48,906 nucleotides of DNA from Clostridiales bacterium (lineage in GTDB: Bacteria; Bacillota; Clostridia; Christensenellales; Aristaeellaceae), in the NCBI GenBank assembly GCA_015056055.1, contig SVHC01000022.1, positions 1 to 48,906 of the forward strand, written 5' to 3'. A program made the position numbers and the translations under genes. Shown here piece by piece: positions 25,538-30,047 of this stretch; position 1 is the first letter of the stretch; each line of letters opens with the position of its first letter. The notes beneath the pieces were generated by a model. The model ran no database searches and was not told the DNA's origin. It saw nothing but the letters and a program-made list of their open reading frames with translations.

Positions 25538-26305
25538 TTATTCGCCTACAGTGTACTTGATATACAGATTATCGATGGTGCCGTCGCTCAGAAGACGCTC
25601 AAGAATAGCGTTAACCTTCTCGCACAGTGCGGTGTTGCCCAGCTTGAAGGCGATGCCATAGCTTTCGGGTTCCATCTCAATGCCCTCGAGAATTACAAGA
25701 CCATCAATGTTGGATACGATTTCCTCTGCAGGTGCGGAGTCGATCATAACTGCATCGATGCGGCCGGCAGCCAGATCCAGTGCAGCATTGGTACCGGTGC
25801 TGTACTGACGTACTTCAACACCTTCCATGTCGCTTACAAAGAAATCGCCGGTGGTGCTCATCTGAACGCCAACTACCTTGCCTACGAGGTCATCTACCTT
25901 TGCGATGTCCGCATAGCCTTCACGAACGATGATGGACTGAACAGCAGTAGCGTACGGAGTGGAGAACAGAACGCTTTCCTGACGCTCAGGGGTAATGGTG
26001 ATACCGGACATAGCGGCGTCTGCCTTGTTGCTGGTAACCATGTTGATAACGGAGTTGAATTCTACATTCTCAATAGCGAGTTCAAGACCAAGTTCCTTGG
26101 CAATAATCTCTGCAACTTCCATATCGACGCCAATGTACTCGCCGCCTTCGCCAACCATCTCCCACGGAGCGAACTCAGCATTGGTAGCAACCGTAAACTT
26201 ACCGGCGTTTACAGTATCAAGACCACTTTCGTTGCTCTGGCAACCAGCAAGAACAACGCACAGCGCGAGAGCCATTACGAGGGCTGCAAACTTCATAAAC
26301 TTCAT
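25538..26305 (-). CDS. Amino-acid ABC transporter substrate-binding lipoprotein
   Basis: Extracellular lipid-anchored binding protein of 255 residues (SBP family 3). The start is the ATG at 26303-26305; an ATG nine bases upstream touches the AGGAGG site and is unlikely. A lipobox LAGC at about residue 22 marks lipidation. The mature domain begins KFTVATNAEFAPWEM, followed by GVDMEVAEIIAKELGLEL, a family 3 signature, SGITITPERQESVLFSTPY and the C-terminal LSDGTIDNLYIKY. The ligand is not clear; the Asp residues in the binding cleft regions fit a polar amino acid. First gene of the importer operon with its own promoter. Confidence 0.95.
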   Translation of the reverse strand: MKFMKFAALVMALALCVVLAGCQSNESGLDTVNAGKFTVATNAEFAPWEMVGEGGEYIGVDMEVAEIIAKELGLELAIENVEFNSVINMVTSNKADAAMSGITITPERQESVLFSTPYATAVQSIIVREGYADIAKVDDLVGKVVGVQMSTTGDFFVSDMEGVEVRQYSTGTNAALDLAAGRIDAVMIDSAPAEEIVSNIDGLVILEGIEMEPESYGIAFKLGNTALCEKVNAILERLLSDGTIDNLYIKYTVGE

Positions 26306-26336
26306 CGGAAACATCCTCCTAAAACATAATGAATGG

Positions 26337-26365: not shown

Positions 26366-26441
26366 TATCAGCCCCCGTTAAATGAATATTAAATCATACT
26401 TTTTTCTATGTGTCCGAATTTTTATACACCCTTTCTGGGGA

Positions 26442-26470
26442 TTGACAAATCTCATCGGCAAAGGTAAAAT
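26442..26470 (+). promoter_or_regulatory. Sigma-A promoter of mgtE
   Basis: TTGACA (26442-26447), 17 bases, TAAAAT (26465-26470). The expected start near 26477 leaves a 240-base leader before mgtE. The 402-base stretch between the importer genes and mgtE therefore holds two divergent promoters plus this leader. Confidence 0.85.
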
Positions 26471-26506
26471 AATATAGTTCCATTCCTAATACATATACTG
26501 ATTTAT

Positions 26507-26682
26507 GGGAGGTGACACCGAATGGACGATGGCGGTCATAGTACGTTGAATGAAGGCGTGCCCAGGCGGTGTCGCACATTCCGCAATCGCCCCTCCGGCA
26601 GATAATCCTTTCACGCCGGTATAATTCGACACGTCTGATTTCATCTTTCCCGCCAAACAGGCTTGCAAGGTGTGCAATGCCT
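26507..26682 (+). promoter_or_regulatory. Structured mgtE leader, candidate Mg2+-responsive control element
   Basis: GGAGG (26508-26512) can pair with CCTCC (26592-26596), and TGACACCG (26513-26520) with CGGTGTCG (26567-26574). Competing stems are GTGTCG (26569-26574) with CGACAC (26627-26632), CCGGC (26595-26599) with GCCGG (26615-26619), and a late hairpin CAGGC...GCCTG (26658-26682) before the mgtE ribosome binding site. Mutually exclusive stems are typical of attenuators and riboswitches. I could not match the M-box consensus. A small reading frame sits inside. Confidence 0.55.
26522..26605 (+). CDS. Candidate 27-residue leader peptide upstream of mgtE
   Basis: ATG at 26522 with a GGGAGG ribosome binding site (26507-26512) nine bases upstream, then 27 codons to TAA at 26603-26605. 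The peptide starts MDDGGHSTLNEG and continues VPRRCRTFRNRPSGR: acidic at the start, then proline and six arginines. This recalls the enterobacterial MgtL leader peptide, which has an acidic/proline-rich start followed by arginines and controls the Mg2+ transporter mgtA. The ribosome binding site and its spacer are themselves base-paired with codons near the end of the frame. Too short for statistical support; the call is an inference from the initiation signals, position and composition. Confidence 0.5.
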   Translation: MDDGGHSTLNEGVPRRCRTFRNRPSGR

Positions 26683-26716
26683 GATTTCATTATGTAAATT
26701 TGGGAGGATGAATCCA

Positions 26717-28063
26717 ATGAATTCTGAAAGAATGAAAGAACGGCTGGATGCATTGATTCAGCTCGGCCGTCACAATGAACTGCGCGGCGCAATGATGATG
26801 CTCAACGAGGTCGATATTGCAGAATACATGGCCGAACTCAAGAAAGAGCATCTTCTGATGGTATTCCGTATTCTTCCGAAAGATATTTCTGCGGATGTTT
26901 TCGCATATCTGGACGATGAAAAGAAGCAGGAACTTATTGAACTCATCGGCGACGGTGAAATCCGTGCCCTGATTGATGATATGTTTCTGGACGATGCGGT
27001 TGACTTTCTGGAGGAAATGCCTGCAAGCGTCGTACGCAGGATTCTGCAAAGTACCGATGAGCATACCCGCAACCTGATCAATCAGTTCCTGCGTTACCCC
27101 GAGAACTCTGCAGGTTCAATCATGACGATTGAATATTGCGAATTTCATCAGGGAATCACGGCTCGTCAGGCGCTTGATAATCTGAAGCGTACCGGTATCG
27201 ATAAAGAAACGATCTATACGCTCTATATCATTGACCAATCCCGCCGCCTCTGCGGTACACTCGCACTGCGTCGCCTGATTATGGCTCCCGACGATGCACT
27301 TGTCGAAACGATTATGGATACCACGGTTATCAGTGTAAAAACGCTGGATGACCAGGAAACCGTCGCCGATACTGTGCGTAAATACGACCTTCTGACCATT
27401 CCCGTTGTAGACAACGAAGAACGCCTCGTCGGTATCATTACTGCGGATGACGTCATGGACGTTATCGAAGAAGAGAACACCGAGGACTTTGAAAAGATGG
27501 CGGCTCTGCTCCCCAGTGATGACGAATACCTCAAAACTTCTGCATTCCAGCTGGCCAAGAATCGTATGCCCTGGCTGATCGTCCTGATGCTTTCCGCCAT
27601 TCTTACCGGCGCGATCATCACTCATTTCGAAGGGCTTCTGGCAGGCGCCGTCGGCCTGACCGCATTTATCCCCATGCTGATGGGTACCGGCGGTAACTGC
27701 GGTGCTCAGGCTTCCACACTTGTTATCCGCGGTCTTGCGCTTGGTGAAGTTCAATTCAAGGATACGCTCAAGGTTCTCTGGCGCGAATTCCATGTAGGTC
27801 TTATGGTCGGTCTTGCGCTTGCCGGACTCACATTCCTGCGTCTTATGTTCCTCAGCCAGTCCGGATTGACGGTATCTCTGGTAGTTTCCATCAGTCTTTA
27901 TTGTACGGTTGTTTTCTCAAAGGCAATTGGCTGTACGCTGCCGCTGTTCGCAAAGCGCATAAACCTTGACCCTGCTCTTATGGCAAGTCCGCTTATTACA
28001 ACCCTCGTCGATATTTGCTCCCTGCTGATTTTCTTCATGATCGCTTCGCAGTGGATGCTCTAA
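26717..28063 (+). CDS. mgtE: Magnesium transporter MgtE
   Basis: Homodimeric Mg2+ channel gated by intracellular Mg2+. The ATG at 26717 lies nine bases after a GGGAGG site and gives 448 residues, the usual length; earlier in-frame ATGs are at or before that site. Domains: N-terminal helical MgtE_N domain (about 20-120), tandem CBS domains (about 130-250), a plug helix, then five transmembrane segments (about 280-448) with the family motif GTGGNCGAQAST and the pore-lining ASPLITTLVDI (Asp near the C-terminus). Preceded by a 240-base structured leader with a possible leader peptide, so transcription or translation is probably controlled there. A TtcA-like gene follows after 24 bases. Confidence 0.97.
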   Translation: MNSERMKERLDALIQLGRHNELRGAMMMLNEVDIAEYMAELKKEHLLMVFRILPKDISADVFAYLDDEKKQELIELIGDGEIRALIDDMFLDDAVDFLEEMPASVVRRILQSTDEHTRNLINQFLRYPENSAGSIMTIEYCEFHQGITARQALDNLKRTGIDKETIYTLYIIDQSRRLCGTLALRRLIMAPDDALVETIMDTTVISVKTLDDQETVADTVRKYDLLTIPVVDNEERLVGIITADDVMDVIEEENTEDFEKMAALLPSDDEYLKTSAFQLAKNRMPWLIVLMLSAILTGAIITHFEGLLAGAVGLTAFIPMLMGTGGNCGAQASTLVIRGLALGEVQFKDTLKVLWREFHVGLMVGLALAGLTFLRLMFLSQSGLTVSLVVSISLYCTVVFSKAIGCTLPLFAKRINLDPALMASPLITTLVDICSLLIFFMIASQWML

Positions 28064-28087: not shown

Positions 28088-28807
28088 ATGAAAGATGTGC
28101 TTGGCTGCATTCGCCGCGCCGATAAAGATTTTCATATGATCGAACCGGGCGACAATGTTCTTGTCGGCGTTTCCGGCGGAAAGGACAGTCTCCTTCTGCT
28201 GCATGCTATGGCTTTGTACCGCCGCTTTTGCCCGACTCCTTTCACATTGCAGGCAGCAACCCTTCACATGGGCTATGAGCCGTTCGATCTGTCCGGCATA
28301 CGCGCTCTGTGCGAGGAGCTGGATGTCCCCTATACCGTGAAACAAACAGATATCGCCAAAGTTATTTTCGAGGAGCGCAAGGAAAAGAATCCCTGCTCCT
28401 TGTGCGCAAAGATGCGCCGCGGTGCTCTTTCCGACCTCTGCAATGAACTCGGCGCAAACAAAGTGGCACTTGGTCACCACAGGGATGACGCCATCGAAAC
28501 GCTTCTTTTGAGCATGCTGTATGAAGGTCGCCTGCACACGTTCCAGCCGGTCACCTATCTTTCACGCTCGAATATCACGCAGATTCGCCCCATGGTATAC
28601 CTGAGCGAAAAGCATGTAATTCACATGACAAAACAGCTTAATCTTCCTGTGGTCAAGTCCCCTTGCCCGGCAAACGGACGTACCAAGCGTGAGGATATGA
28701 AAGACCTGCTTAACTACATCTGCAAGTCCGTTCCCAATGCCAAGGACCAGCTTCTCAGAGCCTTGCAGAATGAAGAGCAGTATGGTCTCTGGAACAAGCC
28801 TCGCTAA
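28088..28807 (+). CDS. TtcA-family tRNA thiolation protein (PP-loop ATPase)
   Basis: 239 residues of the TtcA/TtuA class, which adenylate tRNA bases and replace oxygen by sulfur. The PP-loop is SGGKDSLLLLH (about residues 29-39). The cysteine pair CSLC (about 102-105) and a later Cys in SPCPANGR are as in TtcA, where three Cys hold an iron-sulfur cluster. The motif GHHRDDAIETLLL is typical. TtcA makes 2-thiocytidine-32; the exact target is not certain in Firmicutes homologs. GGAGG precedes the ATG. The gene probably shares mgtE's transcript and ends at a strong terminator. Confidence 0.88.
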   Translation: MKDVLGCIRRADKDFHMIEPGDNVLVGVSGGKDSLLLLHAMALYRRFCPTPFTLQAATLHMGYEPFDLSGIRALCEELDVPYTVKQTDIAKVIFEERKEKNPCSLCAKMRRGALSDLCNELGANKVALGHHRDDAIETLLLSMLYEGRLHTFQPVTYLSRSNITQIRPMVYLSEKHVIHMTKQLNLPVVKSPCPANGRTKREDMKDLLNYICKSVPNAKDQLLRALQNEEQYGLWNKPR

Positions 28808-28940: not shown

Positions 28941-30047
28941 ATGAAAAAAGCGATAACGTATCTCAAGAATGAACCTGTTCTGATTATTGCATGGATTCTC
29001 GCCCTTGCTTCCATGTTCATCGTACCGCCGGACAGTGCATACGCCGGCTACATCGATACGCATACTCTGGCGTTGCTTTTCTGCCTTATGGGTGTTATGG
29101 CTTCATTGCAAGGTATAGGCTTTTTTCGACGTGCAGGCGAAATTCTGCTGCAGAAGACCAGAACAAGCCGCCAACTGGAAGCAGTCCTGATATTTCTTTG
29201 CTTTATTTCCAGCATGCTGATTACTAATGATGTTGCACTGATTACTTTTGTTCCTTTTGCACTTGAAGCTTTGCGCATGGCAAAGCTTGAAAAGCGCATC
29301 ATTCCCGTAGTCGTTATGCAAACGATTGCTGCCAATCTCGGCAGTATGGCAACGCCCATCGGCAATCCTCAGAATTTGTATCTATACTCCCACTATTACC
29401 TGAGTGCCGGAACATTCTTCTCCGTTTCCCTTCCCTACGTTGCATTTTCTGCTGTTTTGCTGGCAGTATTTATTCTGCTGAAAAAACCGCAGCCCGTTTG
29501 CCCGCCTACCGCTGAAACAAAAATTATTTCTACCCGCACTCATCTTGCAACACTCGCTGTTTTGTTTTTAATTTGCCTGTGCGCCGTTGCGCACATTTTG
29601 AACGTATGGCTTGTTCTGGGAATCGTTGCCATTTGCCTTTTGATTCTGGACCGCCGATGCCTCTTGCATGTTGACTATGCACTTCTTGCGACATTTGCAG
29701 GTTTCTTTGTTTTCATCGGCAATCTCGGTCGCGTTCCTGCATTCAGTGATTTTCTGCGTTCTATCCTTGAAGGACGTGAAGTATTGGTAGCCATCGCCGC
29801 CAGCCAGGCGCTTTCCAATGTTCCCTGCGCTCTGCTCCTTTCCGGTTTCACCGAGAATGCTCTTGCACTCGTAATCGGTACGAATCTCGGAGGTTTGGGC
29901 ACCTTGATTGCATCGATGGCAAGTCTCATCTCTTTCAAACGCATTGGCATTGAATATCCCAATCTGCGTGGACGCTACTTAGGGTATTTCACCGTGGCGA
30001 ATATCGTTTTCCTCGCATTTCTTCTCGGACTCTGGTTGTTGCTTTAA
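28941..30047 (+). CDS. SLC13/ArsB-superfamily anion permease
   Basis: Integral membrane protein of 368 residues with about ten hydrophobic segments. Typical ion-transporter-superfamily features are MLITNDVALITFVPFA (the conserved N-D in the first re-entrant repeat), LGSMATPIGNPQNLYLYS (the SxTPxGNPQN motif) and, in the second half, SQALSNVPCALLLSG and GTNLGGLGTLIASMASLI. These motifs occur in ArsB, NhaD-like and SLC13 carriers. The protein is shorter than ArsB (about 430), and no arsR/arsC is near, so arsenite transport is not supported. Substrate (an anion or dicarboxylate) unknown. A single-gene unit with its own promoter and terminator. Confidence 0.87.
   Translation: MKKAITYLKNEPVLIIAWILALASMFIVPPDSAYAGYIDTHTLALLFCLMGVMASLQGIGFFRRAGEILLQKTRTSRQLEAVLIFLCFISSMLITNDVALITFVPFALEALRMAKLEKRIIPVVVMQTIAANLGSMATPIGNPQNLYLYSHYYLSAGTFFSVSLPYVAFSAVLLAVFILLKKPQPVCPPTAETKIISTRTHLATLAVLFLICLCAVAHILNVWLVLGIVAICLLILDRRCLLHVDYALLATFAGFFVFIGNLGRVPAFSDFLRSILEGREVLVAIAASQALSNVPCALLLSGFTENALALVIGTNLGGLGTLIASMASLISFKRIGIEYPNLRGRYLGYFTVANIVFLAFLLGLWLLL

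Follow-up and report, generated by a model that had tools for sequence, protein, structure and literature searches.

Control of mgtE in the Firmicutes is usually credited to the M-box riboswitch. A second way of coupling a transporter gene to Mg2+ is described for enterobacteria, where mgtL encodes the leader peptide of mgtA in E. coli and Salmonella (PMC8934632, PMC11282234). In the passages cited here, ribosomes fall off mgtL at its EPDP sequence when Mg2+ is low and mgtA is transcribed (PMC8934632), and in Salmonella mgtQ the small ORF is translated less because of its residues Asp2 and Glu5, which frees the ribosome site of mgtB (PMC8092293). Excerpts from reports on mycobacteria place an M-box together with an upstream ORF before mgtE in Mycobacterium abscessus (PMC4974804) and before pe20 in Mtb (PMC12810186). 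As far as the extracts go, a review mentions pausing at an mgtE riboswitch (PMC12288461) and the Salmonella attenuators are among the closest published systems (PMC3641672). A search of the literature outside bioRxiv and most subscription journals found no description of an mgtE leader-peptide device in the text portions that it returned.

Here we describe the mgtE leader found in a stretch of 48,906 nucleotides from a Clostridiales bacterium (contig SVHC01000022.1), the whole of which is referred to as the window. The computation supports a conserved coding core that is specific to mgtE plus two covarying alternative pairings. The best reading, to which we give a probability of about 0.65, is a leader-peptide attenuator of mgtE working like MgtL and MgtQ, where the likeness is one of working and not of membership.

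Organisation of the mgtE leader

A sequence-only reading of the window had proposed a 27-codon frame with GGGAGG nine bases before its ATG inside the leader of mgtE, and the frame was found as described. The parts of the leader are as follows.

26442..26470, + strand: sigma-70-like promoter TTGACA-17-TAAAAT, with 11/12 consensus matches
26507..26512, + strand: GGGAGG, Shine-Dalgarno (SD) sequence for the leader ORF, with nine bases between it and the ATG
26522..26605, + strand: leader-peptide ORF of 27 codons, ATG 26522-26524, stop 26603-26605; codons 1-16 (M DDGG ... EGVP R R) form the conserved core and the tail is not conserved
26635..26651, + strand: linker element complementary to the mgtE SD (anti-SD), paired with it in the predicted fold
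26658..26683, + strand: hairpin (-12.3 kcal/mol) at the place where relatives have a terminator
26702..26707, + strand: mgtE SD GGGAGG, predicted to be sequestered
26717..28063, + strand: mgtE, Mg2+ transporter/channel and the controlled gene (Pfam PF01769, PF03448, PF00571)

The translated frame reads MDDGGHSTLNEGVPRRCRTFRNRPSGR and the mgtE gene, whose product carries MgtE, MgtE_N and CBS domains (Pfam), starts 111 nt past it. The GGAGGTG-type SD of the leader ORF is kept across the leader alignments. The leader is taken to be about 240 nt long because of the promoter-like element; similar hexamers were seen by eye upstream in many relatives, and shuffles of the region contain a mean of 1.5 sites with as good a match. 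The duplex formed between 26635-26651 and 26701-26717 has a predicted energy of -16.3 kcal/mol, which alone is not significant (z -1.3), and the hairpin at 26658-26683 is followed by ATTTCATTAT, with no clear U-tract, and did not score as a terminator. The neighbouring genes are a divergent family-3 solute-binding protein at 25538-26314 and, downstream of mgtE, a PP-loop ATPase family protein (28088-28807, Pfam) and a CitMHS-type transporter (28941-30047).

No Rfam family matched anywhere in the window at gathering scores, and at E<=10 the region 26380-26760 gave two sub-threshold matches, to an sRNA and a CRISPR repeat, and no riboswitch. The M-box or another Rfam family was rejected on these grounds as an identity for the leader, which agrees with the earlier reading, in which no M-box consensus could be found there. 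A search with the leader DNA in 396 genomes of the order returned its own genome as the sole match.

Conservation of the leader peptide

MgtE is present in 93 of the 121 genomes of the same family. By eye, a short ORF with a matching start was observed in the leader of each of the 30 closest mgtE genes, a set that contains the window's own, and the frame proposed from a single sequence is conserved among these relatives with codons that evolve as coding. Among 40 further upstream regions, four belong to the second genes of tandem mgtE pairs and 25 were added to give a set of 55 leaders, while variants such as MDAGGSSYGTYADHIRRS, MDAGSTGSIPGRS and MDSGTTSAGTDVGRRS were seen by eye in the other 11. 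The pattern shared by the 55 leaders is M-D-D-G-G-(R)-(C)-x-x-x-(E/D)-G-V-P-R-S. In the numbering of this alignment, proline was found at position 16 in 54/55 leaders, valine or isoleucine at position 15 in 50/55 and aspartate or glutamate at position 13 in 48/55. The window's copy of the peptide reads MDDGGHSTLNEGVPRR and that of the sister species (G001) reads MDDGGRNAMNDGVPER; across relatives the length varies from 20 to 52 residues. The peptide belongs to no Pfam family, and its core has one conserved proline with no EPDP-like repeat.

The likeness to MgtL proposed earlier holds for the acidic start, as aspartate or glutamate occurs at residue 2 or 3 in 54/55 leaders. The other half of that proposal, a C-terminal Pro-Arg-Arg / Phe-Arg likeness (PRRC..FR), was rejected since the tail is not conserved in the relatives. 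The resemblance that counts lies in the acidic start and, for relatives outside the order, in an MDxxPLP start.

In four tandem mgtE pairs (G098, G039, G118 and G073) the leader was observed before the first gene only, with none in L062-L064 and L067, and in a fifth pair (G088) it precedes both genes (L030, L048). Nine further loci (L264-L268, L270, L271, L273 and L275) have an mgtE that is about 30% identical to the window's, with Asp-start ORFs of another type (for example MDGYDSTGE and MDGHESTGD).

Coding signature

Codons 2-18 have a pN/pS of 0.40 (bootstrap 0.30-0.55, 22 disjoint pairs). When pairs of equal gaps were compared, the value in frame was 0.39 while the other two frames of the core gave 1.10 and 2.29. 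The constraint is confined to the first 18 or so alignment columns, and the tail after PRS is nearly free (pN/pS 0.82). In addition, Ser18 is encoded by both TCN and AGY codons. The distance from the ATG to the proline differs by whole codons among leaders, although this is weak evidence because translated frames were what was aligned. A local RNA fold of the core was rejected as a candidate, with 0 consensus pairs predicted by RNAalifold in the aligned core of 39 sequences. The frame before mgtE very probably encodes a translated regulatory leader peptide.

Codon choice within the core is restricted at two arginines. Arg17 is CGA in 44 of the 45 cases where arginine occupies this position in the 55 leaders, and Arg8 is AGA or CGA in 41/41 cases; in the predicted genes of 51 loci and the window, CGA forms 6.5-8.6% and AGA 4.7-9.4% of arginine codons. 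The constraint at Arg17 goes beyond the amino acid and has no obvious pairing reason. At this site the window has AGG and the sister species has glutamate. No run of codons for one amino acid, as in attenuators of the trp/his type, was found in the leader ORFs.

Specificity for mgtE and taxonomic reach

A sequence-only model of the core, for which 39 leaders were used in training, gave 56 matches at E<=0.01 in the 121 family genomes. All 51 matches with E<=0.001 sit no more than 500 nt upstream of an mgtE on their own strand, a position that none of the five weaker matches (E<=0.01, >0.001) has. The absence of matches away from mgtE is not by construction, despite the 39 training leaders. Searching 297 genomes of the order gave 11 matches at E<=0.01 in other families, where four (G182, G194, G188 and G142) directly precede mgtE and the other seven have no mgtE within the locus examined. 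A scan with a degenerate pattern found at least 119 stretches, and mgtE follows in at least 51; among the matches listed, two look alike but the sequence ends before the gene, and 66 are without mgtE. The sequences in which a match precedes mgtE, at least 51 in all, are titled Clostridia, Clostridiales, Eubacteriales, Bacillota, Christensenella, Christensenellaceae, Candidatus Pullichristensenella or Candidatus Faecivicinus.

The most widespread feature is the aspartate at codon 2. Leader ORFs were first recognised by eye or with loose filters, and the counts given here come from a fixed rule, with its misses included, that requires an SD, 12-50 codons and Asp at codon 2 in the last 460 nt before mgtE. 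Such an ORF was found in 75/94 regions of the family compared with 17/940 shuffles, in 16/23 regions from other families of the order (7/230 shuffles) and in 39/69 regions from other orders of the class (8/690 shuffles), which gives 130/186 for the whole class against 32/1860 shuffles. A slightly wider rule, used without a shuffle control, found 15/26 in other classes of the phylum. Both totals count short regions, namely L292 with 42 nt among the 186 and L379 with 94 nt among the 26. Among neighbouring genes sorted as non-mgtE and having 130-600 nt upstream, 11/137 scored, and all 11 ORFs turned out to lie upstream of mgtE genes missed by the gene sorting; one of them, in L326, sits at an M-box rather than at the main leader ORF. 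With the automatic gene sorting, the Asp2 ORF was found before only 21/38 MgtE-signature genes.

A start resembling that of MgtL was observed in 26/69 regions from other orders, mostly as MDxxPLP, for example MDSGPLPSRKAL, MDYDPLPILN and MDFDPLPSNF. The Asp and Pro counts of this set are no evidence by themselves because the regular expression that selected it demands Asp/Glu and Pro. The pN/pS of the MDxxPLP-type leaders is 0.65 (0.35-1.10, 7 pairs), which is not significant. Six loci (L307, L309, L310, L311, L324 and L330) have an MExG-type ORF further upstream and an MDxxPLP-type ORF adjoining mgtE. Such tandem leader ORFs recall mgtM/mgtP of Salmonella.

M-boxes alongside the leader peptide

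The M-box (RF00380) was not found in the window and, with strict filters, nowhere in its own genome. The family contains it in 12/121 genomes, seven of which have it just before mgtE when coordinates are compared by hand. An M-box, a variant leader ORF and mgtE follow one another in this order in G017, G060, G086 and G108 (L078, L075, L082 and L084), and also in G012, G056 and G105 (L080, L263 and L076). The description of this leader as unlike the M-box is correct for the window and its genome, whereas several relatives have the M-box and the peptide in series. By eye, L078 shows a terminator-like hairpin between the M-box and the leader ORF.

Among 40 further loci searched, 11 have an M-box, and an Asp-start ORF lies between it and mgtE in ten (L300, L315, L317, L319, L322, L325, L326, L327, L328 and L330). 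In the remaining M-box locus, L332, no Asp-start ORF was seen before mgtE. A single mgtE can therefore be subject to both devices in series; in L330 three leader elements, an M-box, an MExG-type ORF and an MDxxPLP ORF, follow one another before mgtE. The location of M-boxes before mgtE in relatives also points to Mg2+ as the signal. A Clostridiales-2 sRNA (RF02937) was found upstream of the mgtE region at L326 58-138.

Predicted alternative pairings in the leader RNA

Pairing was examined in 59 leaders, 55 from the family and four from other families. A one-helix antiterminator read from single leaders was dropped and replaced by tests over all of them, which are not independent events because the sequences are related. 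A hairpin with a U-rich stretch between the ORF stop and mgtE was found in 49/59 leaders, compared with 81/295 mononucleotide shuffles, and 10/59 have no terminator-like hairpin. With a stricter terminator rule 48 leaders qualify, and these were folded over the stretch that begins at the leader SD and ends with the hairpin's 5' arm. At least eight pairs between core and linker are predicted in 39/48, the other nine having no long duplex, and at least four pairs to the terminator 5' arm in 33/48. For the 43/48 leaders with linkers of 20-120 nt, 28.5 core:linker pairs were predicted against 13.7 in dinucleotide-shuffled linkers, and 6.3 pairs to the terminator 5' arm against 3.6. Furthermore, the cognate core:linker pairing is better in 39/43 after row and column means are removed.

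Complementarity between the linker and the mgtE SD has a mean z of -1.1, with 16/59 leaders below -1.65, and the cognate combination is better (residual negative) in 49/59. Together with the core:linker results, this predicts that the linker can pair either with the leader ORF or with the mgtE SD, the latter alongside the terminator. The two alternative pairings are predicted, and covary, across leaders, and a two-state RNA switch is on the strength of these models rather probable in the family. Outside the order, the 26 MgtL-like leaders have an ORF SD/start that is complementary to sequence downstream (mean z -2.2, 18/26 below -1.65, mononucleotide shuffles), and a terminator scored in only 4/26.

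Equilibrium folds of 45 leaders with no ribosome contain 9.4 core:linker pairs, a value that becomes zero by construction when the core is covered. With the core covered, the linker:mgtE-SD pairs increase from 7.0 to 9.4, the openness of the mgtE SD falls from 0.29 to 0.23, and the terminator probability shifts only slightly on average (0.55 to 0.62). The off state is favoured at equilibrium in many relatives too. Given this bias and the small change in the terminator, the model needs co-transcriptional folding.

The window's own copy of the leader is divergent. Its folding energy does not stand out (z -0.3 and 0.4). Its core:linker pairs number 0.0 when it is free and 7.0 when a ribosome is placed at mid-ORF, and the unpaired probability of the mgtE SD is 0.00 in all four modelled states. 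Peptide-coupled control of mgtE, as proposed from the sequence, best accounts for the conserved coding core and the alternative pairings among relatives, but the on state is unexplained in this leader because the core:linker duplex is not predicted when it is free and the mgtE SD is always closed. Translation may be the main level at which the window's leader acts, or its RNA may have to fold while it is being transcribed.

Proposed mechanism and alternative explanations

In the proposed mechanism, RNA polymerase would make the leader and ribosomes would start on the leader ORF. When Mg2+ is sufficient, translation through the ORF would prevent the leader SD and the ORF core from pairing; with the linker thus left free, the terminator hairpin could form, the linker could cover the mgtE SD, or both, and mgtE would be off. 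When Mg2+ is low, ribosomes would be lost or paused early, on the acidic start, and the leader SD and ORF core could then pair with the linker and the terminator 5' arm. Termination would be avoided, the mgtE SD would be free and the leader SD hidden, which would lock the on state. We infer Mg2+ sensing for this mgtE leader peptide, and destabilisation of the ribosome as the way in which it is sensed is somewhat favoured.

The conserved EGVPRS middle with its CGA codon is not explained by drop-off at the start, and it suggests mid-peptide arrest as a real alternative or an added step. An arrest-peptide attenuator, in which stalling at Gly-Val-Pro-Arg(CGA)-Ser is caused by the nascent core and the stalled ribosome, instead of drop-off at the acidic start, determines how the RNA folds, overlaps the attenuator described above, and its signal could be Mg2+ or another effector. 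The near-invariant Pro16 (54/55) and Val/Ile15 (50/55) fit a stall site, as do the choice of CGA at Arg17 (44/45) despite its low share of arginine codons (6.5-8.6%), the use of AGA or CGA at Arg8 (41/41) and the recurrence of GRS/GRR with CGA in distant leaders. The motif positions vary, however, with AGG in the window and glutamate in G001, and a ribosome modelled at PRS left the mgtE SD no more open on average (0.26 vs 0.29, 45 leaders), so that arrest as the whole explanation is unlikely though worth serious consideration. The conserved rare arginine codons AGA and CGA could also be read as classical attenuation by an amino acid (charged tRNA-Arg or similar) instead of Mg2+. This is very unlikely in view of the missing single-codon run, the position of the matches before mgtE and the wider spread of Asp2 than of any other feature.

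The high nucleotide conservation and the pairing of the ORF core with the linker would also be expected of an RNA element, such as a riboswitch of a new type, that is marked by the frame and looks coding by accident. A pN/pS of 0.40 in frame only, the switching of serine codons, the lack of consensus pairs within the core (39 sequences) and the lack of an Rfam match make this highly improbable. The conserved peptide might instead be a small protein with its own function that is co-transcribed with mgtE, but only the first 18 or so columns are constrained (tail pN/pS 0.82), the length ranges from 20 to 52 residues, no Pfam family contains it and none was found away from mgtE at E<=0.001 in the 121 family genomes. 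We consider it the least probable of the explanations weighed here.

The attenuator working like MgtL and MgtQ is the reading that we prefer. As a conserved peptide lies in a likely RNA switch, the relatives probably sense magnesium by means of the translating ribosome, either in addition to the M-box or in its place. If this is true, a large part of the Clostridia reads Mg2+ also or only by leader-peptide translation, like enterobacterial mgtA and mgtB; ribosome-based Mg2+ sensing would then be general and no enterobacterial oddity, and mgtE genes without an M-box would be explained. The leaders would also provide many natural peptides for mapping the nascent sequences that make the ribosome Mg2+-dependent. 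A broader and more tentative reading, which we hold at somewhat less than even odds, is that throughout the phylum the translating ribosome senses Mg2+ for mgtE. It would act through acidic-start peptides of two kinds, MDxG..[GP]R(CGA)S and MDxxPLP, which would have separate switches and be stacked with each other and with M-boxes; MgtL would be a branch of this or a convergent answer. The first kind of peptide would in that case hold a second sensing step at the conserved CGA.

Comparison with known systems

The comparisons with published systems refer to the passages cited above. Like mgtL, the device proposed here is a short ORF in the leader of a Mg2+ transporter gene, with an acidic start and an early loss of ribosomes that would turn the RNA on, and relatives outside the order have an MDxxPLP start like the E....PLP of MgtL (by eye). 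Unlike mgtL, the transporter is MgtE, the phylum is another one and the core is EGVPRS where MgtL has EPDPTP; in addition, an intrinsic terminator and SD masking are predicted here whereas mgtL has a Rho-dependent site. The intermittent prolines of MgtL (EPDPTPLP) are absent from the window's family and occur only in the MDxxPLP leaders outside the order, hence the leader is classed as working like MgtL and not as a member.

The resemblance to mgtQ, which is located between mgtC and mgtB, lies in the early acidic residues, the predicted alternative stem-loops and the proposed release of a ribosome site of a transporter gene. However, mgtQ has 8 codons and is inside an operon while the ORFs described here have 20-52 codons and are found in a 5' leader, where a terminator-like hairpin, unlike in mgtQ, accompanies 49/59 of them.

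The M-box likewise occurs before mgtE, and in some relatives it is in series with the leader peptide, but the conserved core described here has no consensus fold. Mycobacterial leaders also have a small ORF beside an M-box, with peptides that are set apart by their descriptions in the cited extracts, as a vcgB homologue and as mycobacteria-specific. The mgtE motif SRC-65-1 is, as here, an mgtE leader element that includes the SD; as far as the cited extract describes it, it is a structured riboswitch candidate of Thioalkalivibrio only, with no upstream ORF mentioned for it (PMC11109978).
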